NCBI GenBank assembly: GCA_027082175.1
Contig: JALWIX010000072.1
Span: 1-44,090, forward strand
Direction of reading: 5' to 3'
From: Campylobacterales bacterium
GTDB taxonomy: Bacteria; Campylobacterota; Campylobacteria; Campylobacterales; Nitratiruptoraceae
Length of the DNA stretch: 44,090 nucleotides
Shown: positions 2,912 through 40,983 of the stretch, piece by piece
Layout of the letters: each line of letters starts with the position of its first letter
How positions within the stretch are numbered: position 1 is the first letter of the stretch
The notes under the pieces: generated by a model
Told to the model about the DNA's origin: nothing
The model's input: only the letters and a program-made list of their open reading frames with translations
Databases searched by the model: none
Translations under genes and position numbers: made by a program

Positions 2912-4351
2912 TTGAACGAAGAGCAGAAAAAGATACAAGAGGTTGTATCGAGAGAGTATGAGCTGGGATTTAGCGTAGATATAGAAGAAGAAACGGCGCC
3001 TCCTGGACTAAATGAAGATATTATTAGATTTTTATCTAAAAAAAAGGGCGAACCGGAATGGATGACCAACATGAGAATCCAGGCTTTTCATATCTGGCAA
3101 AAGATGGAGGAGCCTAGATGGGCTCATTTAAAATATGATGTTATCGATTATCAATCTATATCCTATTATGCGGCGCCTAAGAAGAAGCCAAAAAGTTTAG
3201 ATGAAGTAGATCCTGAGATTTTAAGAGCCTATGAGAAATTGGGTATTCCTTTGGAGGAGCAAAAAGCTCTTGCCGGAGTAGCTGTTGATGCTGTTTTTGA
3301 TTCGGTAAGCATAGGAACTACTTTTAAAGAGAAACTAAAAGAGATGGGAATAATCTTTTGCTCTATATCTGAGGCGATCAAAGAGTATCCTGAACTTATA
3401 CAAAAATATATGTTTAGCGTAGTTCCTATGAGCGACAACTTTTTTGCGGCGCTAAATTCGGCTGTTTTTACAGACGGAACATTTGTTTATGTTCCTAAAG
3501 GCGTTAGATGTCCGCTAGAGCTTTCCACATATTTTAGGATAAACGCGCAAAATACGGGACAGTTTGAGAGAACTTTAATAATAGCTGATGAGGGAAGTTA
3601 CGTCTCTTACAACGAAGGGTGTTCTGCGCCAATGAGAGATGAAAATCAGCTTCACGCTGCCGTTGTGGAACTTATAGCTTTAAAAGATGCCGAGATAAAA
3701 TACTCCACAATCCAAAATTGGTATCCGGGAGACGAAGAGGGACGAGGAGGTATATACAACTTTGTAACCAAAAGAGGAGTTTGTGCAGGTGAGAACTCCA
3801 AAATATCCTGGACTCAGGTAGAGACAGGCTCAGCCATAACCTGGAAATATCCAAGCTGCGTCTTAAAAGGAGATAACTCCGTAGGAGAGTTTTACAGTGT
3901 GGCGATAACCACTAAAGCTCAGCAAGCGGACACGGGAACTAAGATGATACATATAGGAAAAAACACCTCTTCCACTATCATTTCAAAAGGTATTTCGGCT
4001 ATGAGGGGCCAAAATAGTTATAGAGGTTTGGTCAAGATTCAAGCGAGTGCCCAAAACGCTAGAAACTATAGTGAATGCGACTCTTTGTTAATAGGAGACA
4101 AATGCGGAGCCCACACTTTTCCTTATCTTGAATCCAAAAACGCATCCGCACAGATAGAACATGAAGCTACCACATCCAAAATAAGCGATGAACAGCTCTT
4201 TTATCTAAGACAAAGAGGAATCAACGAAGAGGATGCTGTAAGTATGATAGTTCACGGATTTTGTAAAGAGGTTTTGGCAAATCTTCCAATGGAGTTTGCC
4301 GCTGAAGCAAAAGATCTGTTAAATTTAACTTTAGAAGGAAGTGTAGGATGA
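2912..4351 (+). CDS. sufB: SUF scaffold protein SufB
   Basis: SufB is a core subunit of the SufBC2D scaffold on which iron-sulfur clusters are built in the cytoplasm. From the TTG at 2912 the protein is 479 residues, the usual family length; the frame is open back to an ATG at 2840 but promoter and ribosome-site positions argue against that. The body is the classic parallel beta-helix: [16 protein letters not shown] in the core, SYNEGCSAP with the conserved cysteine region, and the C-terminal FYLRQRGI(N/D)EEDA followed by an MIVHGF helix that binds SufC. It overlaps sufC by four bases. Confidence 0.96.
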
Positions 4352-6294: not shown

Positions 6295-6437
6295 GTTTGT
6301 TATTGGTATATTGTGAATTGGGTAAAGCAGAGAATCAAAGAAGCAGTAAAGCAGTGAAGATTTGAAAAAATTGAAACTCATTAGTCTCCTCTTCACGGCT
6401 TTCCTGCTTCAAACCCAAACTAACACCAACACTAAAC
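6295..6437. repeat. Long imperfect word hairpin between sufD and sufE
   Basis: The inner stem pairs 6340-6359 (GAAGCAGT-AAAGCAGT-GAAG) with 6391-6410, matching at about 18 of 20 positions. The outer arms 6295-6323 and 6413-6437 pair more loosely through GT-rich words such as TATTGGT and GTTAGTTTGGGT. Both arms show 7-8-base repeated words. No coding frame fits. It could act as an RNA processing or termination point, or be a small mobile hairpin. Confidence 0.75.
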
Positions 6438-7365: not shown

Positions 7366-7800
7366 GAGACTGTTCACAATTCCGTGTCACCTTCAAATTA
7401 TATTATAAACTAGATATCCAGGGCTTTATCAAGCCTGCCTTCAAAGAAAATAGCCAATTGAGAAAGTGTAAGATTCCAATTTTTAATTGGCATTGTCCAT
7501 TTTTTCTGAACATTTTTCGTTTCACTTCGTTCAACATCACTGTAAGCAGAAGAATGCCTATATAAAGCAGTTTTAAAAGTGAGTTTTCATTTGGGAAAGC
7601 TCCTTTAGTTTTTGTTAGTTTTCTAAATTGTCTATGTACAGATTCGATGATATTGGTAGTATAGATGATTTTTCTAATTGGTTCAGGATATTTGAAATAG
7701 TTTGATAGATTCTCTCTCTTGTTTTCCCAGGAGTTAATTGCTATGGGATACTTTTTACCCCATTTTTCTTCAAGCTTATTTAATGTCAACAGCAACCCAA
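7366..7800 (-). mobile_element. Truncated IS256-family insertion sequence (3' end)
   Basis: The outer end near 7366-7390 carries GACTGTTCACAATTCCGTGTCA, matching the end of the element at 101-124. Only the C-terminal third of a transposase remains (next entry); the 5' part stops at a junction with IS1595-type sequence near 7790-7810. The element is oriented as the copy at the left edge, so the 130-7365 segment lies between two direct IS256 copies. Confidence 0.8.
7410..7800 (-). pseudogene. IS256-family transposase remnant, C-terminal part, frameshifted
   Basis: On the minus strand the peptide LEEKWGKKYP, then NWxN-like SWENKRENLSNYFKYP, IRKIIYTTNIIES, RKLTKTKGAFPNE and LLKLLYIGI is clear IS256 C-terminal sequence. 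After LLYIGI the frame is broken by an inserted stretch of about 35 bases; in another frame the match resumes as QKKWTMPIKNWNLTLSQLAIFFEGRLDKALDI, ending at 7410. The catalytic DDE residues before this region are missing. It is a dead copy. Confidence 0.85.
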
Positions 7801-8059
7801 AAATGTACCACTTCGGCAATGTTAGTTATGACAAGCATTTTAGAGTTAATCATAGTGACAAGAGTAAAGCAAATGGAAATCACATTAATGGCATAGAATC
7901 ATTTTGGATTATTTTAAGATAAGATTATATAAATTTAGAGAACTCTCTAAAGACAAATTCAATTTACACTTAAAAGAGTGTGGGTTTAGATTTAATAATA
8001 GTTATAATGATTTATCTAAAATTCTTATAAAAAACTTTAGAAAGGAATCTCTAAACTAA
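7800..8059 (+). pseudogene. IS1595-family (ISXO2-like) transposase remnant, C-terminal part, frameshifted
   Basis: On the plus strand from about 7800 a frame reads YDKHFRVNHSDKSKANGN, HINGIESFW, the hallmark end of ISXO2-like transposases (E-x-F/W with the H-I-N-G-I-E motif). It hits a stop at about 7920, but one base shift restores RLYKFRELSKDKFNLHLKE and FRFNNSYNDLSKILIK, ending in TAA at 8057-8059. The upstream two thirds are gone, replaced by IS256 sequence, so IS256 probably inserted into it and later loss removed the rest. Confidence 0.85.
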
Positions 8060-13216: not shown

Positions 13217-13346
13217 ATTGGGTATTAGGAATTGGGAATTGGGAATTGGGAATTGAAAAAAAAAAGAGACTCTCTTTTAATCACTATTTTTAAAGGGCAC
13301 CTCTAAACTACAAAATTCCACTAATTCCTAATTCCCAATTCCTAAT
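13217..13346. repeat. Word hairpin with four GGAATTG-type tandem units
   Basis: The left arm (13217-13254) is a run of heptads, TTAGGAATTG then GGAATTG units. The right arm (13316-13346) is their complement, CTAATTCCTAATTCCCAATT followed by CCTAAT. The two enclose about 60 bases without an open frame. It separates cdsA from the NFACT gene, both on the minus strand. Confidence 0.8.
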
Positions 13347-17044: not shown

Positions 17045-17640
17045 ATATGCCTTGCGTAATTTTTGCCGGTGGCAAAAGTTCTCGAATGGGCAAAGATAAA
17101 TCTTTGCTTCCATTTGAAAATAGCTCCCTCGTAAAATTTCAATATGAAAGGCTAAAAGAGATTTTCAGTGAAGTTTGCATATCTACCAAAATAGACAAGT
17201 TTGATTTTAAAGCTCATATGATTTTTGACAAAAGTGATATTTTTGCTCCAACTGTCGCTTTCAAAGCGATATTTGAAAAGTTTGATAATTTTTTTGCAAT
17301 CAGCGTAGATACTCCTTTTGTAGACGAAGAAGTAATTAAAAAGTTAATAAACGTATATAAAAACAATAAAACTGTAGACGCCGTTATCGCTAAAACCAAG
17401 TTTCCTCATCCGCTTATCGGAATCTACCAAAAATCTATCTTGCCGACTATAGAAAGAGAGTTAGAAAAAGAAAACTACAAATTAGTCTATATTTTAAAGA
17501 ATTCAAACACTATTTTTGTTAAATTTGAAGAAGAGGAGAAGTTTTTCAATATAAACTATCCCGACGATTATAAAAACGCCCTGCTAAAATCTACTAAAAT
17601 ATCTAATAAATCAAATCTTAACTTTCCGTTTCATTCATAA
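17029..17640 (+). CDS. mobA: Molybdenum cofactor guanylyltransferase
   Basis: MobA attaches GMP to molybdopterin to form the guanine dinucleotide cofactor used by DMSO-reductase-family enzymes such as nitrate reductase. The protein is 203 residues. The nucleotide loop VIFAGGKSSRMGKDKSLLPF and the metal-binding SVDTPFVD are clear, followed by PLIGIYQKSILP. The TTG at 17029 places a GGGGAG site about 11 bases upstream and gives the usual short pre-strand; the ATG at 17047 is an alternative. Together with moaC nearby it points to molybdoenzyme respiration. Confidence 0.93.
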   Translation: MQKILDMPCVIFAGGKSSRMGKDKSLLPFENSSLVKFQYERLKEIFSEVCISTKIDKFDFKAHMIFDKSDIFAPTVAFKAIFEKFDNFFAISVDTPFVDEEVIKKLINVYKNNKTVDAVIAKTKFPHPLIGIYQKSILPTIERELEKENYKLVYILKNSNTIFVKFEEEEKFFNINYPDDYKNALLKSTKISNKSNLNFPFHS

Positions 17641-23486: not shown

Positions 23487-24254
23487 TTAATATTCATGCA
23501 TACTGTTTATAAGTTCATTGTGTATTTTGCCATTTGAAGCGACTATAATATCTCCAAACTTATACTCTTTTCCTAAATGGTTTGTTACTTTTCCTCCGGC
23601 TTCGGTAACTATCAAAATACCTGCGGCTACATCCCAGGGCTTAAGACCAATCTCATAAAAACCGCTAAATCTCCCGCAAGCGGTATAACAAAGATCAATA
23701 GCGGCAGAACCTAATCTTCTTATATCTCTCGTTTTTGGAAGAAGCTCTGAGAAAGTCTTTATAACCCATCTGTAATCTTTTCCCATCTTAATTTTTGTGT
23801 AGGGAAAACCTGTAGCGATCAAAGATGAGGTAAGATTATCCTCTTTGTTTACTTTTATATTTTTACCGTTAAGATATGCCCCCTCTCCTTTTTTTGCCCA
23901 AAAAAGCTCATCTAAAATAGGATTGTACACTATCCCCTCCTTTGGCTCTCCCTCTTCCCAAATAGCGATAGATATGGATACGTATACAATAGAGTGGACA
24001 AAGTTGGTAGTGCCGTCAATCGGATCTATAAAAATCGCTTTTTGTGGAATGGAGCCCGCTTTAAAACTCTCTTCGGCGACAATCTCAAAATCAAGATATT
24101 TTTTAGATATCTTCTCTTTTAAAAAGTTTTCTATCTTTACGTCATACTCAGTAACAAGATCGATTTCACTCTTAAAATCTATCCTCTTTGGGTGATAATA
24201 ACCATATTTTAAAATATTGCCCGCCTCTTTTACAATCTCAACGAGTTTTGACAT
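23487..24254 (-). CDS. Inositol-monophosphatase family phosphatase (SuhB-like)
   Basis: The product is 255 residues. Metal-binding motifs are all present: VAEESF (motif A glutamates), DPIDGTTNFVHS (motif B) and KPWDVAAGILIVTEAGG (motif C). Family members hydrolyse inositol phosphates, fructose bisphosphate or PAP, and E. coli SuhB also aids rRNA transcription; sequence alone does not decide. It converges on the patatin gene with 32 bases between stops, where AAAACGTTTT is a small palindrome. Confidence 0.9.
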   Translation of the reverse strand: MSKLVEIVKEAGNILKYGYYHPKRIDFKSEIDLVTEYDVKIENFLKEKISKKYLDFEIVAEESFKAGSIPQKAIFIDPIDGTTNFVHSIVYVSISIAIWEEGEPKEGIVYNPILDELFWAKKGEGAYLNGKNIKVNKEDNLTSSLIATGFPYTKIKMGKDYRWVIKTFSELLPKTRDIRRLGSAAIDLCYTACGRFSGFYEIGLKPWDVAAGILIVTEAGGKVTNHLGKEYKFGDIIVASNGKIHNELINSMHEY

Positions 24255-24290
24255 AAATAACCTTTCTTAATTCATAATTCGTGATTGCTC

Positions 24291-24349
24291 GATAGTTTAT
24301 GGTTGATAGTATTTAATTTTTTTCTGCCAACTATCTATCATAAACTATC
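24291..24349. repeat. Word hairpin upstream of the inositol-phosphatase gene
   Basis: GATAGTT-TATGGTT-GATAGT (24291-24310) pairs with 24330-24349 at 18 of 20 positions around a 19-base A/T-rich loop. The arm is made of heptad words. It sits in the 630-base gap before htrA, just outside the start of the minus-strand gene. Confidence 0.75.
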
Positions 24350-24404
24350 CGCTATCAACTAAAATATCGCTAGGGACTATCTTACAACACTCACCTAAAC
24401 ATTT

Positions 24405-24752
24405 TAACCGCAAATCTTCCTCGCATTCGCTCGCTAAGATTTGCTTCACGGTAAACCAGCCGTTCATATGCTCGTCACTAAGCATAGCTTAGGACTCGCA
24501 TAAATTCACAGCTTGCACTCGGACACAAACGATAAGCAGTTATCGTTCTAAGCCTTCGGCTTGTCCTCGTTAATTTTCCTTAAACTAACCGCAAATCTTC
24601 CTCGCATTCGCTCGCTAAGATTTGCTTCACGGTAAACCAGCCGTTCATATGCTCGTCACTAAGCATAGCTTAGGACTCGCATAAATTCACAGCTTGCACT
24701 CGGACACAAACGATAAGCAGTTATCGTTCTAAGCCTTCGGCTTGTCCTCGTT
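24405..24752. repeat. Perfect 167-bp tandem duplication made of hairpins
   Basis: 24405-24571 and 24586-24752 are identical over 167 bases and separated by 14. Each copy holds four hairpins in a row; in copy one they are GCAAATCTT/AAGATTTGC (24410-24418 with 24436-24444), CTAAGC-ATA-GCTTAG (24478-24492), AACGATAA-GCAG-TTATCGTT (24528-24547) and AAGCC-TTC-GGCTT (24550-24562). The unit is visibly richer in G/C than the surroundings. No credible protein is encoded. It may be a structured RNA, a protein-binding site array or a repeat unit found elsewhere. The rest of the 24255-24885 gap holds the hairpin at 24291 and an A/T-rich htrA promoter region. Confidence 0.9.
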
Positions 24753-24885
24753 TACTTTTTATTTACTTTTTATTAAATCTCGTTTGTAATTTTTATATTA
24801 TCATTTTATTACTAAAAAATAGGAAGCTGAGTATTAGCTTACTCATCTTCATTTTTAATTTTCATTATACGAAGGAGGAGAAAAA

Positions 24886-26292
24886 ATGAAAAAAGTTTTG
24901 TTTATATCAACAGTTGCGGCTTTGATGCTTTCAGCCGCCACTATACATTTTGAAGAAGCGCCTAAAGACTTCAAAAGAGTAATGCCTCAAGAGGATAAAA
25001 ACGTAGTACTCTCTTTTTATGACGCTATTAAGGAAGCAAAACAGAGCGTTGTCAACATCTCTACCAAAAAAAAGATAAAAACGCCAAACTTTGCAAATTC
25101 TCCCTTTTTTAGCGATCCTTTCTTTAAACAGTTCTTCGGTCCTATGTTTAAAGATAGATTACCAAAAGAGAGAGTTCAAAGATCACTGGGCTCAGGGGTA
25201 ATCATAAGCAAAGAGGGATATATAGTGACAAACAACCATGTCATAAACGATGCGGATGAGATAACTATAACGCTGCCAAACAGCGATAAAGAGTATAAGG
25301 CTAAGATTATAGGCAAAGACCCGTTGACAGATTTAGCGGTTATTAAAATAGACGCAAAAAATCTAAAACCTATAAAGTTAGGTGACTCTTCTAAACTTAA
25401 AACCGGAGATATAGTATTTGCCATAGGAAATCCTTTTGCAGTAGGAGAAACGGTGACGCAAGGCATTGTTTCCGGTCTTAACAGAAGCAACGTAGGAATC
25501 AACACATACGAAAACTTCATTCAAACCGACGCGGCTATCAACCCAGGAAATTCCGGAGGAGCATTGGTTGACAGCAGAGGAGCGCTTGTCGGGATAAATA
25601 GCGCTATCATAACAAGAAGCGGCGGAAATAACGGTATAGGTTTTGCAATACCCGTCAACATGATGAAAGATGTGGTCAAAAAGCTTGTTGAAAAAGGTAA
25701 AATCGAAAGAGGGTATCTAGGAGTTATTATAGAAGACATAAAAGGTCCTTTAAAAGAGGTATATAAACATAACTACGGCGCTATCATAGTCGACGTTGCC
25801 AAAGATTCAGCCGCTGCCGAAGCAGGTCTTAAAAGAGGAGATCTGATCATAGAAGTTAACGGAGAAAAGATTGACGACGCAAATAAACTAAAAACCGTAA
25901 TAGGCTCTAAAGCTCCCGGAGAAAAAGTTAAAATAAAGTATGAAAGAAACAAAAAAGTTTACACAACAACAGTAAAATTAAAAGAGAGACCAGAAAGTAC
26001 AAGTGTTGGCTCTGAAAAAGAGTTCCTAGGTCTTGGTCTAAAAGAGCTTGATGACAAAACAAGAAGAATGTATAATATCCCTAAAAATGTTGAAGGGTTA
26101 TTGGTTACGGAAGTTGAACCGGACAGCAAAGCTGAAAAGGCTGGGTTTAAAAGAGGAGATATTATCGAAGCAGTTGAGGATATAGATATTAAAAATATAG
26201 AAGATTTCAAAAAAGCGATCAAAAAATATAAAGGACCAAAAAGAGTATACGTAAGAAGACAAGGATATCCTCTTATTTTAGTGCTAAAATAA
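24886..26292 (+). CDS. htrA: Periplasmic serine protease/chaperone HtrA (DegP)
   Basis: HtrA degrades or refolds damaged envelope proteins. The protein is 468 residues: signal peptide (about 1-18), trypsin-like domain with the triad H118 (TNNHV), D149 (LTDLAV) and S223 (GNSGGAL), then two PDZ domains (about 285-370 and 380-468) with the GYLGV and FLGLGL openings. An AAGGAGGAG ribosome site precedes the ATG. TATATTAT near 24794-24801 is a likely -10. The two-component genes follow on the same strand, as in Campylobacter, where CprRS lies next to htrA. Confidence 0.96.
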   Translation: MKKVLFISTVAALMLSAATIHFEEAPKDFKRVMPQEDKNVVLSFYDAIKEAKQSVVNISTKKKIKTPNFANSPFFSDPFFKQFFGPMFKDRLPKERVQRSLGSGVIISKEGYIVTNNHVINDADEITITLPNSDKEYKAKIIGKDPLTDLAVIKIDAKNLKPIKLGDSSKLKTGDIVFAIGNPFAVGETVTQGIVSGLNRSNVGINTYENFIQTDAAINPGNSGGALVDSRGALVGINSAIITRSGGNNGIGFAIPVNMMKDVVKKLVEKGKIERGYLGVIIEDIKGPLKEVYKHNYGAIIVDVAKDSAAAEAGLKRGDLIIEVNGEKIDDANKLKTVIGSKAPGEKVKIKYERNKKVYTTTVKLKERPESTSVGSEKEFLGLGLKELDDKTRRMYNIPKNVEGLLVTEVEPDSKAEKAGFKRGDIIEAVEDIDIKNIEDFKKAIKKYKGPKRVYVRRQGYPLILVLK

Positions 26293-26314: not shown

Positions 26315-26364
26315 AAGTTGGAAGTTTGAAATCTTAAAACTTATAATACTCAAACTTCCAACTT
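26315..26364. repeat. Perfect 15-bp word hairpin between htrA and the response regulator gene
   Basis: AAGTTGGAAGTTTGA (26315-26329) pairs perfectly with TCAAACTTCCAACTT (26350-26364) over a 20-base loop. The arm consists of AGTTGGA-AGTTTGA heptads, and AAACTTATA/AAGTTTTTA words surround it. It lies 23 bases after the htrA stop, so it could end or attenuate transcription and set the ratio between htrA and the regulators. Confidence 0.75.
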
Positions 26365-35145: not shown

Positions 35146-36424
35146 TTTTAAAAGCCTTTTTAAACGTACTTAGCGAGGCTTCAAGCAAAATTTTACATTT
35201 TTGGTTAAAGATTGCCGACTTTATCCTAGCCGCTTCCGCTTTGGCTTTTGCTAAATCCGCAATAGCTCTGCTAAGTTCATCCGCGCTAGATAGTTGATTT
35301 TGAAATCGACCCTCTATCAACTTATAATAACTCTTTGCCGCTTTAACTCTTTTTTTTGCCGAAACAAGAGTAGTTTTTAAAGAGTCCAAAACCTTAAAGT
35401 CGCTTTTCAAAGAGCTTTTGATCTTGCTTTTATAGTCCCTTAAATACGCTATTCTAGCCAACTTTTTATATTTTGCCGCCTCTAAAGCCTTTTTATCGCT
35501 AAGGCCGTTGAAAATATTTTGAGAAATCTCAAAAGCCACGTAACTCTCATTTGCATTTTTATATCCGTCCCCGTTTAGTTCAAGATTACTGCCATATTTT
35601 CTCAAAGCCCCTTTAAAAAAAAGTTTAGGATAGAAACTGCTTTTAGCCAAAGCTATATCTTTTTCATCGATCATTAAAGCTTTTTTTATAGCCAAAACAT
35701 CTTCTCTAGACTCTATCGCCTTTTTTATAGCCGCTCTGTTCAACTTAATATCTCTTAATCCTTCCACGTCTTCTATCTTGCTGCTTGTTAAATATTCAAG
35801 AAGATAGAGCATAGACTCTTTTTTGCTTCTATACTCGCTCAAAATAGACTCTATCTCATACTTTTTTGCTTCTATATTGTATATTTCGCTTGGCGGAATC
35901 AAGCCTTGTTCATAAAAACCTTTTGCTTTCTTATAAGCTAGCTCTATCGCTTTCAAAGCCTCTTTAGTAGCCTCAATAGCGTAGTTTAAAGAGTATATCA
36001 CACTGTAGGTTTTGGCACTTTTTATATAAAGATTTCTTTTTAGATCGCTTTTTTCTAACGCACTTTTTTGTATGTCAAGTCTAGATTTCTCTACAATATT
36101 CTCAATGGCAAAACCGGTAAAAATAGGGTATGTCAAAGATATTTCTCCTATATATTGATTTATAGATGCCGCCTGAAAATATTCAGGTAGCCCCGGAAAT
36201 TTCAAATCCACGTAAAGTTTCGGTTCCTCCTGAAGATATATAGCTTGAAACGAGGCATCTATAGAAGGAAACATTTTACCCCTATTAGAGAGATACATCT
36301 CTTTTTTAGCTTTTATTTCGTAACTTTTAGATTTCAATAGATAATTGTTTTCAACCTTTTTTAAAATCTCTTCAAAATTTTCGGCCAACAAAATAAGAGG
36401 GAAAAATATCAAAATAAATCTCAT
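35138..36424 (-). CDS. TolC-family outer-membrane efflux protein (with the EmrAB-like pump)
   Basis: The product is 428 residues with a signal peptide (about 1-14), then two repeated halves of long helices and short barrel strands, as in TolC/OprM: ENFEEILKKVENNYLLKSKS, the F-x-G-F-A-I-like turn YPIFTGFAIENIVEKS and its partner QNIFNGLSDKKALEAAK. It forms the outer-membrane duct for the pump encoded just upstream; its start coincides with the MFS gene stop at 36424 and its end overlaps pldA. Confidence 0.9.
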   Translation of the reverse strand: MRFILIFFPLILLAENFEEILKKVENNYLLKSKSYEIKAKKEMYLSNRGKMFPSIDASFQAIYLQEEPKLYVDLKFPGLPEYFQAASINQYIGEISLTYPIFTGFAIENIVEKSRLDIQKSALEKSDLKRNLYIKSAKTYSVIYSLNYAIEATKEALKAIELAYKKAKGFYEQGLIPPSEIYNIEAKKYEIESILSEYRSKKESMLYLLEYLTSSKIEDVEGLRDIKLNRAAIKKAIESREDVLAIKKALMIDEKDIALAKSSFYPKLFFKGALRKYGSNLELNGDGYKNANESYVAFEISQNIFNGLSDKKALEAAKYKKLARIAYLRDYKSKIKSSLKSDFKVLDSLKTTLVSAKKRVKAAKSYYKLIEGRFQNQLSSADELSRAIADLAKAKAEAARIKSAIFNQKCKILLEASLSTFKKAFKNE

Positions 36425-37998
36425 TATCCTTCCTTTTTAATCTTCGATCTTTTCTGAAAAAAAAGAGATATTACGAAAATAGTTCCAAACAGTCCCCAAT
36501 AAGCTGCATGTAAAAAAGTGTTATAAAAACCGTAGTTATAACTCATAAAAAGTTCGTAGTTCCTAAAAACCTCTTCTACCAACTCTTTGGAAACTCCTAA
36601 AAATTCTTTAACCTTTTCAAGAAAAAAATAAACGTATTCTAGGTTCTGTATCTGTGTCATTCTATCGAAATTTAAAGATTTAAAGAACTCCATATTGTTT
36701 GTAGCAAGAGCCGTTCCAAAACTTCCGCCTACAAACCTTACGTAATCCATAAGCACAATTGCCAATTCGCTTTTATTTTGAGGCGCGCTTTGTAAAACAA
36801 GGACGGTAACGGGAGCAAAAAACATACCCATACCGATCCCAAAAGGGATTGTAAGCGCTATTGCTTGCATTAAAGGCGTATAATAATTAAGTTTAGGAAG
36901 CAGAAAAAAGGAAGTAAAAAGATAGATAAAAGCCGCTATGGCCAATGTTTTTTTAGCTCCTATCTTATCACTCATAATACCGGCTATAGGCGAAAAAATT
37001 CCTATAAAAAGCGCAAATGCAAATATAGCTATGCCGGCGTTTAACGTTGGAAGCATCTTTATGTGTTCGTAATATACCGGCAAAAGATAAAAATATTGAT
37101 ACATACTAAATCCGAGTATAAAAAAATATATAAGTATTCCGTTCGTAAAGTCAGCGTTTTTAAATAGAGAAAAATCTATCAAACTCTTTTTTGAATGCAT
37201 CTCGGCCAAAATATATAAAATATACCCCGTAATCGAAATATATAGCAAAACTCCTATCTCCACAGAACTAAACCAGCCAAGTTGCTGTCCCCGACTTAAC
37301 ATAATAAGAAGAGATACCGTTGCTATAGATATCAAAACAAAACTTTTAAAATTAAAACTCATCTTCTCAAAAAACCTATCTTTGGGTAGATAGATTAACC
37401 CCGCAACCACTAAAATAACTCCTATGGGAACATTTATAAAAAACACCATTCTCCAGTTATAATACTCCGTAAGATACCCTCCTACAGTCGGTCCAAGAGC
37501 CGGAGCAAAACTTACTCCCAAAGCAAAAATACCCATTGCCAACCCCTTCATTTTAGGAGGGAAATATGAAAAGATCATTACATGACTAGTAACCATAATT
37601 AGAGCTTCTCCAACTCCTTGCACTACTCTTGCTACGATTATAGTCTCAAGGGTATTGGAAAGCCCGCAAAACATAGAGGCTATGCTAAACATAGCAACAC
37701 CGGTCAAATAAACTTTTTTTGAACCAAACTTTTTTATAAGATATTCGCATATTAATAGACCGACGGCCGCAGCCACCATATAGCTAGTTATAATCCACTG
37801 CACTCCATACATATCCGTAGAAAGAGGCCCCGTGAGCTTTGGAACTATAACGTCTACCACAGTAGTATCGAGTATAGCCATAAAAGCGCCAACCATAACG
37901 ATAATGGTATAGACTATCCTCTCTTTTGTAGTGATGTCCCATGGATTTTTGTTATTAGTATATTGGTTTATTGGTGTATTAGGACTATTTTTTTGCAT
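36424..37998 (-). CDS. DHA2-family MFS drug efflux transporter (EmrB-like)
   Basis: The product is 524 residues with about 14 transmembrane helices, the DHA2/EmrB type. Motifs include AILDTTVVDVIVPKL in helix 1, MYGVQWIITSYMVAAAVGLL, the motif-C-like ALGVSFAPALGPTVGGYL and FINVPIGV. It exports hydrophobic compounds via the HlyD-type adaptor upstream and TolC downstream. The first 19 residues (QKNSPNTPINQYTNNKN) are encoded by the left arm of a hairpin element at 37951-37983; no ordinary ribosome site precedes the ATG, but the start overlaps the end of the four-helix gene, so coupling is likely. Confidence 0.93.
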   Translation of the reverse strand: MQKNSPNTPINQYTNNKNPWDITTKERIVYTIIVMVGAFMAILDTTVVDVIVPKLTGPLSTDMYGVQWIITSYMVAAAVGLLICEYLIKKFGSKKVYLTGVAMFSIASMFCGLSNTLETIIVARVVQGVGEALIMVTSHVMIFSYFPPKMKGLAMGIFALGVSFAPALGPTVGGYLTEYYNWRMVFFINVPIGVILVVAGLIYLPKDRFFEKMSFNFKSFVLISIATVSLLIMLSRGQQLGWFSSVEIGVLLYISITGYILYILAEMHSKKSLIDFSLFKNADFTNGILIYFFILGFSMYQYFYLLPVYYEHIKMLPTLNAGIAIFAFALFIGIFSPIAGIMSDKIGAKKTLAIAAFIYLFTSFFLLPKLNYYTPLMQAIALTIPFGIGMGMFFAPVTVLVLQSAPQNKSELAIVLMDYVRFVGGSFGTALATNNMEFFKSLNFDRMTQIQNLEYVYFFLEKVKEFLGVSKELVEEVFRNYELFMSYNYGFYNTFLHAAYWGLFGTIFVISLFFQKRSKIKKEG

Positions 37999-38387
37999 TT
38001 TTTAGCCTATTTATAAAATTATTCAATTTTTTACCCAAAACCTCCAATTCATTTATAAATCCATCAAACTCCTCTTTTGATATAAACTCTCTTTTATATA
38101 TTAAGATCAGCCAATATTTTGCTTCCCATAGAGAGCCTCTGCTGTTGTAATAAAATTTTAAACTATCTTTATAGTGAAATCTCCCATATCCTTCTGCAAT
38201 ATTAGCTCCTATAGAATCAACGGAACTTAAAAATTGAGATGATATTTCAAATCTAAATTCTTTTGGAATTTTTTTATAAATATGCCAAGCCTTTTCAGAT
38301 AATTTTAAAGAACACCTATAGATTTCTAAATCTCCCAATCTTTTCATCTTATCTCCCAATATACAAATACACCAATTAACTAATAAC
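37951..38387 (-). mobile_element. Candidate hairpin element carrying a four-helix-bundle gene
   Basis: Two 33-bp arms, 37951-37983 and 38355-38387, are inverted copies identical at 27 of 33 positions. The left arm is the octad series GTTATTAG-TATATTGG-TTTATTGG-TGTATTAG. The 363-base gene between them begins 8 bases from one arm and stops 1 base from the other. The unit separates emrA-like and emrB-like genes that are adjacent in other genomes. Arms plus a four-helix-bundle ORF is also the plan of 23S rRNA intervening sequences. Mobility is inferred; no target duplication was identified. Confidence 0.6.
37985..38347 (-). CDS. Four-helix-bundle protein of the 23S rRNA intervening-sequence (S23/IVP) family
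   Basis: From the ATG at 38347 the protein is 120 residues, the family norm. The hallmark stretch SSQFLSSVDSIGANIAEGYG followed by R (about 36-56) and FYYNSRGSLWEAKYWLIL match the S23/IVP family closely. The fold is a four-helix bundle forming a pentameric ring; the molecular role is unknown, with relatives including the Avd accessory protein of diversity-generating retroelements. The GGGAG ribosome site (38353-38357) belongs to the right hairpin arm. A frame open to 38389 would translate that arm and is rejected. No rRNA or reverse transcriptase gene lies nearby. Confidence 0.9.
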   Translation of the reverse strand: MKRLGDLEIYRCSLKLSEKAWHIYKKIPKEFRFEISSQFLSSVDSIGANIAEGYGRFHYKDSLKFYYNSRGSLWEAKYWLILIYKREFISKEEFDGFINELEVLGKKLNNFINRLKNAKK

Positions 38388-38390
38388 AAA

Positions 38391-39506
38391 CTACTGCCGA
38401 CTAATAGCGACAGTAGCTCCCATCCCCACTCTTAAATCTTCAGTGGGATTTAAAATTTTTATACGAATGGTAAATCTTTGATCAAGTTTTGTAAATTCAC
38501 CGCTGGCTATATCTCTTGGAACTAAGCTGAAGGTTGCGGCTGAGGCCGGAAGTATTTTTTGCACTACTCCTTTAAACTCTTTGTTTGGATATGCGTCGAC
38601 TTTGATTTTAACGCTATTACCCTCTTTTACCCCTTTTAATTTCTTCTCGCTAAGCAGTACCTCAACATGTAAATCTTTAGGGTTGACAACGGAGTATACT
38701 GGGTAACCGCTCTCTATAACGCTGGATATATTTATAAATTTTTTCGCTACGACCGCATCTACTGGAGAATAAAGTTTACAATATTGTATTTTATTATTTA
38801 ACTCTTTAGCTCTCTTTTTTAAAGCCTCAATCTTGTTTTTTAAAGACTCTTTATCTTTTTGTAATTCTAAAAGCAATCTCTTTTGCACCGCTACCAATTT
38901 GGCCTCTTTTTTTGCGCTTTCAAGTTCAACATACAAAGAGTTTAGCTCCTTTTTTTGAGCCTCAATTAAATCTTTTAAAGAGTCGAGTTTTGTTTTTATC
39001 TTTTCGTAATCATTTTGTGAGATAAGTTTTTGTTCAAATAGATTTTTGTATCTCTTCTCATCTTTTTGTAGTTTATTAAGGTTTTGTCTATCCGCAGAAA
39101 TTTTTAAGTTATAAGCTTCTATTTTTGTATGAATATACTCTATTTTGTTTTTAGCCAATTTTTCAGATATATCAAGCTCTCTTTTTGTTCTTTCGATCTT
39201 TAACTCAAGAGCTTCTTTCTTCTTTTTTAACGATTCTATCTCTTTTTCAACTCTCTCTAACGCGACTCTATAATCTTTGTCCTCTATAAGAGCCAAAAGC
39301 TCTCCCTTTTTAACGCGATCTCCCTCTTTTTTAAACATATCCGCCACTTTGCCGTCCACTTTGAAAGAGAGGGTCAAAAGCGTATCCGTTTTTATAAACG
39401 CAGCATCGCTTACCGCATTTTTAGTTCTGTAACTTATATAATCGTAGGCTATATAACTAAATATTAAAATCAACATTATGAGTAAAATTGAGCCTATTTT
39501 TTTCAT
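38391..39506 (-). CDS. HlyD/EmrA-type membrane fusion adaptor
   Basis: The product is 371 residues: one N-terminal membrane helix (about 4-24), a biotinyl-lipoyl half (DTLLTLSFKVDGKVADMFKKEGDRV), a long coiled-coil hairpin (about 75-230) that docks to TolC, the second lipoyl half (YSPVDAVVAKKFINISSVIESG), and a beta-barrel C-terminal part with GSVVAI-like GMGATVAISRQ. It links the MFS pump to the TolC channel encoded downstream. It is first in the operon and the hairpin element lies immediately after its stop. Confidence 0.92.
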   Translation of the reverse strand: MKKIGSILLIMLILIFSYIAYDYISYRTKNAVSDAAFIKTDTLLTLSFKVDGKVADMFKKEGDRVKKGELLALIEDKDYRVALERVEKEIESLKKKKEALELKIERTKRELDISEKLAKNKIEYIHTKIEAYNLKISADRQNLNKLQKDEKRYKNLFEQKLISQNDYEKIKTKLDSLKDLIEAQKKELNSLYVELESAKKEAKLVAVQKRLLLELQKDKESLKNKIEALKKRAKELNNKIQYCKLYSPVDAVVAKKFINISSVIESGYPVYSVVNPKDLHVEVLLSEKKLKGVKEGNSVKIKVDAYPNKEFKGVVQKILPASAATFSLVPRDIASGEFTKLDQRFTIRIKILNPTEDLRVGMGATVAISRQ

Positions 39507-39524
39507 AGTATTCCTTTGATATTT

Positions 39525-39653
39525 GTTATTGGTATATTTGGTTATTGGTGTATTGGTTAGTTAATAATTTTTAATATGTTTGTTTTCAATATACTCATTA
39601 CACTAATATAGCAATATACCAATATACTAATACACCAATCACCAATATATGAA
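39525..39653. repeat. ORF-less word hairpin in the divergent efflux spacer
   Basis: The left arm (39525-39560) is the series GTTATTGG-TATATTTGG-TTATTGG-TGTATTGG; the right arm (39601-39653) carries AATACACCAATCACCAATAT and related words, its complement. The left arm is nearly the same as the left arm of the element at 37951. About 40 A/T-rich bases separate the arms. It lies in the 241-base spacer between two efflux operons, close to the start of the HlyD gene. Confidence 0.75.
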
Positions 39654-39663
39654 TTATATTCAT
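39649..39663. promoter_or_regulatory. Operator-like palindrome before the RND efflux operon
   Basis: ATGAAT-TAT-ATTCAT is a perfect 6+3+6 palindrome in the spacer between the two efflux operons, about 85 bases before the tolC-like start. A smaller palindrome TCATATGA lies nearer the gene. Either could bind a TetR- or MarR-like repressor, but no regulator gene is next to the operons and A/T-rich palindromes arise by chance. Confidence 0.3.
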
Positions 39664-39747
39664 TTTTTTATTAGTTTATTCTTATTTAAGGAATACTGTT
39701 TTATCATATGAACTGAAATTATAAATATATTTAAAATAGGCAGGCAT

Positions 39748-40983
39748 ATGCGCAAACTGTTGTTTATTATCTTTATGTTAAACTCTATTTGGGCGCTAAC
39801 GTTAGAGGAAGCGATAGAGATTGCCTTAAAAAAGAGTCCGCTATACCAAATACAAAAAGAAAAAGTGACTCAAGCCGAGTTTGAAAAAAAATCTAAAAAA
39901 TCAAAAAATCTAGGAAAAATATCTTTTGTGGGAAGTTATACTCACTACAATATTCCAAGAACATTGACCCCTATAGTTCCGCCTATTACGCCCGGTATAG
40001 TTACAAGCAACGATATAACTAGCGCGGGCACGGTATATGAAGTGATGTTATTTAACGGGTTTGCGGACGTAAGCTCGATAAAAATTGCCGAAATTAACAA
40101 AAATCTATCTCAAACCGAGCTAAAACTTACAAAAGAGCAGCTTGTCTACAACATTAAATCGCTATATTATAAAACCTTGTCGCTACAAGAACAGCTAAAA
40201 AGCGCTATAAGTTATAAAGAAGCTCTCGAAAAACTTTATAAAGATACCGAAACCGGTGTTAAAATCGGCAAATACGCAAAGATTGACCTATTAAAAGTCT
40301 CTTCTGATCTTCAAAACAGTATTTATTCTATAGAAAATTTAGAAAAAAATATCAAAATTTTAAAATCTAAACTTGCATATACGATGGGAGTTGAAAGTAT
40401 CGATGAGCTGATTGAAACTAAAGAGACTCTTATAAACACGGATTTAGACACAAAAGATATGTATATATACAAAAAACCGCTTTTTGAAACTCAAAAAGCA
40501 AAAAAAGCTATAAAACAAGCCTCTTCTCTCTATTATCCCAAAATATCGCTAAATTTATACTACGGAAAAAATATGGCAAAAGATAGCGAAGAGGAGCTAT
40601 GGCAAGGAGGTATTAACGTAAATTGGAATATTTTAGATTTCGGATATAAAAATTCCCAACTACAAAAAGCGAAAATCTCATATATGATCTCTAAACTAAA
40701 ATTAAAAGATACCGCTCTTAAGCTAAAAAAAGATTTACAAGAGGCCAAAAATCGTATCTCAATAGCAAAAGCAAAAATTGTTTCAACAAAAAAACAGTTA
40801 AAGCTTTTAAAAAAGATAAAAGAGGTAGAAAAGATAAAATATGAAAAAGGGGCATCGGATATGTATGATCTGCTTTACGCTATCGCCAAATATGAAAAAG
40901 CAAAAAGCGAGCTTTATGAGGCCAAATATGACTTAAGCATACAAAAAGCTTATTACAATTATTTAACGGCAGGTGAAAAATGA
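39748..40983 (+). CDS. TolC-family outer-membrane efflux protein (with the RND pump)
   Basis: The product is 411 residues: signal peptide (about 1-16), then the paired TolC repeats. The first half has LTLEEAIEIALKKSPLYQIQ and VMLFNGFADVSSIKIAE; the second has VNWNILDFGYKNSQLQKAK and long periplasmic helices ending near AYYNYLTAGEK. It provides the exit duct for the adaptor and RND pump encoded next, overlapping the adaptor start by four bases (ATGA). It differs clearly from the TolC homologue at 35138, so each pump has its own channel. Confidence 0.92.
   Translation: MRKLLFIIFMLNSIWALTLEEAIEIALKKSPLYQIQKEKVTQAEFEKKSKKSKNLGKISFVGSYTHYNIPRTLTPIVPPITPGIVTSNDITSAGTVYEVMLFNGFADVSSIKIAEINKNLSQTELKLTKEQLVYNIKSLYYKTLSLQEQLKSAISYKEALEKLYKDTETGVKIGKYAKIDLLKVSSDLQNSIYSIENLEKNIKILKSKLAYTMGVESIDELIETKETLINTDLDTKDMYIYKKPLFETQKAKKAIKQASSLYYPKISLNLYYGKNMAKDSEEELWQGGINVNWNILDFGYKNSQLQKAKISYMISKLKLKDTALKLKKDLQEAKNRISIAKAKIVSTKKQLKLLKKIKEVEKIKYEKGASDMYDLLYAIAKYEKAKSELYEAKYDLSIQKAYYNYLTAGEK

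Follow-up and report, generated by a model that had tools for sequence, protein, structure and literature searches.

S23 genes in hairpins with word-array stems: a widespread, probably mobile family that appears to include the 23S rRNA intervening sequences

Described systems and the unit between emrA and emrB

Genes for S23, also annotated as 'four helix bundle protein', are widespread among bacteria, and no function is known for them. Avd, the accessory protein of diversity-generating retroelements, is an S23-related four-helix-bundle pentamer, and solved structures exist among the S23 relatives (2rld, XCC0516). Cyanobacterial STRRs are intergenic heptamer repeats. The TAACTGA heptamer repeats of Beggiatoaceae are direct repeats, with one inverted repeat in 170 sets and no S23 reported (PMC4679880). 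A closely similar described system is the 23S rRNA intervening sequence (IVS), in which an S23p ORF is accompanied by a terminal stem that is cut by RNase III (PMC4990558).

The window, i.e. the whole stretch of 44,090 nt of contig JALWIX010000072.1 (Campylobacterales, Nitratiruptoraceae) that was analysed, holds an S23 unit within an efflux operon. In the order of transcription, the unit and its neighbours are:

38391..39506, minus strand: emrA (HlyD family), transcribed ahead of the unit
38354..38390, minus strand: 5' arm, a run of an 8-nt word (TATTGGTG type) that begins at the emrA stop codon (arm alignment, word scan)
37985..38347, minus strand: S23/23S-IVP four-helix-bundle gene, 120 aa (PF05635, TIGR02436)
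37948..37984, minus strand: 3' arm, the same word run inverted, within the emrB frame (arm alignment, word scan)
36424..37998, minus strand: emrB (MFS efflux), downstream of the unit

In searches with Pfam and NCBIfam profiles, the S23 protein scored 99.6 bits against PF05635 (cut-off 33.8) and 100.8 bits against TIGR02436. This copy has a charge of +8; the S23 domain has a near-neutral mean charge. The gene starts with the ATG at 38347. Its stop codon (37985-37987) abuts the left arm and its ribosome site, GGGAGA, is located within the right (5') arm, much as the first-pass annotation of this DNA had described. The same annotation had placed the gene between inverted arms of 33 bp, and this is confirmed, the 33 bp being the core of arms of 37 nt (37948-37984 and 38354-38390) that are 84% complementary and separated by 369 nt. 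The word period is 8, with TATTGGTG and variants. The arms score 44 when aligned with each other, compared with 22 for the best mismatched partner from 20 other S23 loci and a mean of 17 (sd 5) for all mismatched arm pairs; the inverted arms are not a product of chance. The element had also been called intergenic, between two efflux genes. The flanks are indeed emrA and emrB, but the left arm lies inside the emrB frame, where it encodes an N-terminal extension of EmrB, MQKNSPNTPINQYTNNKNPWD, which the empty junctions of relatives do not have, and the unit is part of the operon. Given that the outer edge of the right arm directly meets the emrA stop codon (38391), the unit extends from the stop codon of emrA to the start of emrB. 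The predicted transcript of the unit folds with a terminal stem (z = -2.6), and no Rfam family was found on the element in window positions 36000-40500.

Like the 23S rRNA IVS of Coxiella, Leptospira and Campylobacter, S23 units have an ORF of ~120 aa, a length of 400-450 nt and a terminal inverted stem, and they lie sense in the host transcript (PMC4990558). The window unit possesses the S23p frame and the terminal stem that encloses it; since it is located between emrA and emrB, and not in a 23S or 16S rRNA gene, it is not a strict rRNA IVS, though the build is the same. The units described here differ further from rRNA IVS in lying between protein genes of operons, in occurring several times in a genome, with a separate word for every copy, and in having S23-less relatives scattered around them. 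One S23 locus of the phylum (L066) lies within the 23S rRNA (RF02541) of G043, a genome with three S23 hits of identical score, and here too the stem consists of word runs, CGGAATACAGATTACAGAATACAGATTACAG vs CGGAATACAGATGACAGAATACGGATTACGG. Judged from this one rRNA case, the IVS build appears to be a particular instance of the word-arm unit, and the plan that the first-pass annotation saw as shared with known IVS is a stronger parallel than it had claimed.

Like STRRs and the Beggiatoaceae TAACTGA repeats (the latter in PMC4679880), S23-linked runs are tandem 7-nt runs, mostly intergenic, with many copies per genome and rare word variants. Whereas those repeats use one or few words in direct orientation, S23-linked runs pair as stems and their words vary by site. 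REP/REPIN-RAYT systems and MITEs are likewise short, dispersed intergenic hairpins beside fewer, longer coding copies. Unlike them, the S23 genomes of the window's taxonomic family have no HUH transposase, and the ends of the units share form and not sequence. By eye, no target duplication stood out among the divergent relatives compared. The units also differ from diversity-generating retroelements, as no RVT_1 reverse transcriptase was found in G000 (the window genome), G001 or G017; G002 gave one weak match.

Our results indicate that the window unit is a member of a widespread hairpin family with an S23 gene in the loop and a stem of inverted 7- or 8-nt word runs. We give a probability of roughly 0.8 to the reading that this is one mobile family, rRNA IVS included. 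A search of open full-text literature, which covers few subscription journals and preprints, turned up no earlier account of S23 genes with word arms, and the comparisons below point to a kind of element that would be both widespread and so far unrecognised.

Inverted word arms at S23 loci

Arms were sought by local alignment of the upstream flank to the reverse-complemented downstream flank, and a score of at least 25 was taken as positive; the thresholds were picked by eye on the same data, with shifted positions and mismatched pairs as controls. The S23 family occurs in 38 of the 298 genomes of the window's phylum, in up to nine copies per genome. Inverted arms are present at 70 of the 85 S23 loci in the phylum, compared with 2.7% of 338 tests at shifted positions and 5.3% of mismatched locus pairs. 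A second set, from Bacteroidota, CPR groups, Nitrospirae, Acidobacteria, Firmicutes, Spirochaetes, Proteobacteria, Planctomycetes and others, gave arms at 65 of 79 loci vs 2.7% in shifted controls, the loci being related and the counts thus not those of independent events. The expectation that other S23 genes of this genome and its relatives would be armed is borne out for most of them. Arm quality ranges from perfect (L088, L090, L099) to degenerate, and a minority of S23 genes have no clear arms, e.g. L063, L082, L087 and L098. At two loci (L002, L010), the 3'-arm word array encodes the C-terminal tail of S23, THPHSHSHSH.

Different sites have different words. The six S23 genes of the window genome all have inverted word arrays, each with a different word (AGGTAGA, GTGTGGG, TTAGTCA, GGTTGAT, TATTGGTG and GTGATCA). 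The best arm period is 7 at 59 and 8 at 7 of the 70 armed phylum loci, and the 83 loci of both sets with 7-nt arms have 69 different words, i.e. they do not share the conserved palindrome sequence that characterises a REPIN family. The words fit a loose profile, D-R-G-W-N-N-W, with one G nearly constant, and the 5' arm is C-poor. At the emrA-emrB locus of G024 (L062), the word of one arm is not that of the other, which may represent an intermediate in the exchange of words.

When word patterns taken from S23 arms were searched in whole genomes, ATTRGTC gave 48 hits in G001 and 21 in G017, AATTRGG 39 in G002 and 32 in G000, and TATTRGTR 24 in G000, 18 in G001 and 15 in G002, hits that overlap inside arrays and do not count separate arrays. 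A backward control pattern gave zero hits, and in S23-negative genomes the patterns were absent or occurred as single hits. Tandem word runs at many intergenic places, as in heptamer repeats, are thus a feature of these genomes (48, 39 and 24 hits per genome), 8-nt words included. In G000, G001, G002 and G017, the emr arms are built from a word that is common in the genome concerned; for word D, the corresponding prediction is weakly borne out in G010, with two arrays beyond its own arms, and G011 has no word-D arrays beyond its own. By these comparisons, the words of a site tend to come from a set that the genome also contains as scattered short hairpins without S23. Contig C76 of G017 has very long, perfect runs of ATTGGAC / ATTGGTC with at least 10 copies (3455-3583 and 17321-17620).

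S23 units are oriented with host transcription. Where both neighbours agree in strand, S23 lies on their strand in 95 of 96 cases (46/47 in the phylum, 49/49 in other phyla). A codirectional upstream stop codon is close to the start of the 5' arm in 63 of 65 units, at a median of 5 nt ahead of the arm, and the downstream frame runs through the 3' arm without a stop in 47 of 64. An inverted-repeat stem is symmetric and only the gene orients the unit; the sense bias therefore suggests that S23 requires transcription by the host or persists only where it is present.

Empty, filled and replaced junctions

Twenty emrA-emrB junctions were compared within the taxonomic family. Six are filled with S23 and arms, and measure 471-506 nt from the emrA stop to a landmark in emrB. 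In 11 empty junctions, emrA and emrB are directly joined, without words, over 61-106 nt. The G021 junction (L029) is a relic of 201 nt that keeps both arms around an internally deleted S23 frame, and the last two, in G008 and G009, have other sequence before emrB. In G008 (L034) another gene lies between emrA and emrB, and in G009 (L027) the frame directly before emrB has the same ending as in G008 (RGALKLVG). Because the empty sites have no words, gene and arms arrive or leave together. Empty sites in relatives, which the first-pass annotation had put forward as a check, were thus found, 11 of them clean and wordless in addition to the deleted relic; the target duplication that it expected alongside was not seen by eye between filled and empty junctions, the relatives compared being divergent.

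Replacement was also observed. The emr S23 proteins of G000 and G002 are 56% identical and the arm words differ as well, whereas four other S23 loci of these two genomes have 96-99% protein identity and the DNA that flanks the emr unit is ~90% identical. By this comparison, the emr gene and arms have evidently been replaced together, in an element-sized exchange. The emrA DNA farther out is more divergent, in a few tracts, so an old recombination there may lie behind the exchange. The emr S23 proteins of the taxonomic family form one clade. In a phylum tree of 83 S23 proteins, whose single forks are weak because few alignment columns are available, the emr junction is occupied by at least two distant lineages, and the rho-murI, rfaE and epimerase junctions have likewise been refilled by unrelated S23 lineages. 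Comparison of sequences gives good support to the view that S23 units are gained, lost and replaced with gene and arms together, and hence to their mobility. The suggestion of the first-pass annotation that this gene family also rides on a mobile element outside rRNA is supported by the general presence of arms, the empty sites, the relic and the replacement.

Hairpins without S23, alternatives and a possible route of movement

Several hairpins of the same form in the window have no S23 gene:

39521..39646, no strand assigned: arms 39521-39555 and 39612-39646, loop of 56 nt, same word as the window S23 unit
13224..13346, no strand assigned: arms 13224-13254 and 13314-13346, loop of 59 nt, word AATTGGG
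24282..24357, no strand assigned: GTTTATGGTTGATA-type words, loop of 19 nt, a different word at the same place in G002
26315..26364, no strand assigned: word AAGTTGG, loop of 20 nt, same in G002
6340..6410, no strand assigned: short hairpin, word GAAGCAGT, loop of 29 nt

A word-agnostic scan that covered 375 kb of G000, G001 and G002 found 14 word hairpins, of which 13 lack S23. The same scan found none in 305 kb of two S23-negative genomes of the same genus (G003, G004) and none in 400 kb from nine other S23-negative genomes. In S23-positive genomes of other families, one S23-less hairpin was found in the 360 kb scanned, so that it is mainly a single genus that ties word hairpins to S23. The G-rich word is on the 5' arm in 24 of 26 short-loop hairpins. 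S23-less hairpins share words with S23 units, and the relic of G021 is an internally deleted unit; a MITE-like descent from S23 units is a candidate origin of these hairpins. In one orthologous S23-less spacer (window 24254-24886; G002 1930065-1930528), the hairpin words differ between G000 and G002, and the G002 hairpin is apparently nested within an older one. A stretch of ~200 nt after the hairpin of this spacer is present twice in G000 and once in G002. A hairpin of G001 with a 416-nt loop was considered as a cargo element and rejected, as it is a word array in frame within a priA-like gene, beside an array mosaic; there, an AGGTTGA run (L220:12327-12360) is in frame in the gene and four different arrays form the mosaic next to it.

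It could be that the word hairpins are a selfish repeat in their own right, propagated by some process of the host or of an element, and that S23 only lands in their loops or is favoured there, without driving them. S23-less hairpins do outnumber S23 units in the window's genus, the word change in the G000/G002 spacer took place without any S23, and heptamer repeats of other bacteria have been described with no mention of S23 (PMC4679880). Nevertheless, the empty emrA-emrB sites are wordless and gene and arms come or go together, S23-negative genomes of the same genus are free of word hairpins in 305 kb, and S23 genes of many phyla lie mostly in such hairpins (65/79). We regard an independent repeat as unlikely, with perhaps a quarter of the weight.

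Template switching at quasi-palindromes is generally established, and the arms might be a by-product of copying, in which a switch between imperfect inverted repeats turned one word array beside the gene into a matched pair that has been kept alike with neither selection nor a dedicated element. The range from perfect to degenerate arms would fit such an origin; wordless empty sites, sense orientation, refilled junctions and genome-wide word sets are left unexplained by it. As the whole explanation it is improbable, and it could operate as an additional process. Slightly less probable again is that S23 is an ordinary operon resident whose arms are a conserved structure for RNA processing or translation coupling. 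The sense placement of S23 in the operon, the single clade of emr S23 proteins and the predicted terminal stem of the transcript speak for this, and the joint replacement of gene and arms in close relatives whose flanks are conserved, the empty junctions, their refilling by unrelated lineages and the dispersed S23-less hairpins speak against it. Selection for sense-RNA pairing was looked for with a G-U test and rejected, as the result was the opposite, with 46 wobble-compatible mismatches vs 85 incompatible transitions. The operon-resident reading is largely refuted by the empty junctions, the replacement and the refilling. Finally, although a pattern of small hairpins scattered around few coding copies is reminiscent of REPINs and RAYTs, it is very improbable that the hairpins are REP-like and moved by a HUH (Y1, RAYT) transposase with S23 as passenger, given that Y1_Tnp had no match in seven S23-bearing genomes (G000, G001, G002, G010, G011, G017, G021), that the genomes of the taxonomic family with Y1_Tnp are all without S23, and that 0 of 156 S23 proteins have the HUH motif.

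For the mobile hairpin family that we favour, S23 is the only candidate protein seen in common in searches that covered HUH and RVT_1, with HUH absent from the S23-bearing genomes of the taxonomic family and RVT_1 from G000, G001 and G017, and carriage by phages, which was considered and set aside, is rare (only 14 S23 relatives among 2.9 million viral contigs). A HEPN-like motif is present in 10 of the 156 S23 proteins. We propose that the element may rely on host transcription and that its sense transcript would fold, a step supported by the structure prediction and for which the G-U test shows no trace of selection. By analogy with published work on rRNA IVS, RNase III could then cut the stem, which would free the S23 message and limit damage to the operon. 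We infer that a pentameric S23 may bind the stem once it has folded, in the form of RNA or of single-stranded DNA, and so take part in movement by helping new copies to establish themselves between cistrons of operons and inside the loops of older hairpins. The near-neutral mean charge of the S23 domain and the S23 genes with no clear arms weigh against this picture. S23-less hairpins would be deletion products or passengers. We put the mobile family combined with these transcription, RNase III and S23-binding steps at even odds; that movement takes an RNA-level route is a doubtful part of the picture, at somewhat under one chance in three.

A broader proposal is more tentative and, in our judgement, has about one chance in three or slightly better: a pan-bacterial mobile class with neither transposase nor reverse transcriptase, whose sole protein would be the four-helix-bundle S23, whose ends could be any inverted run of a 7-8-nt word of roughly the DRGWNNW form, with the word exchangeable in place, and which would be the source of rRNA IVS, intergenic S23 genes and dispersed heptamer repeats. 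Ends with a common form but no common sequence would be a new principle for mobile elements. The S23 gene, so far a hypothetical one, would come to mark a class of mobile elements, S23 hairpin elements would offer a source for intergenic heptamer repeats, and the spread of rRNA IVS would become testable in culture. Elsewhere in the window, a frame at 7403-7819 resembles, by eye, the end of a mutator-type (IS256-like) transposase.
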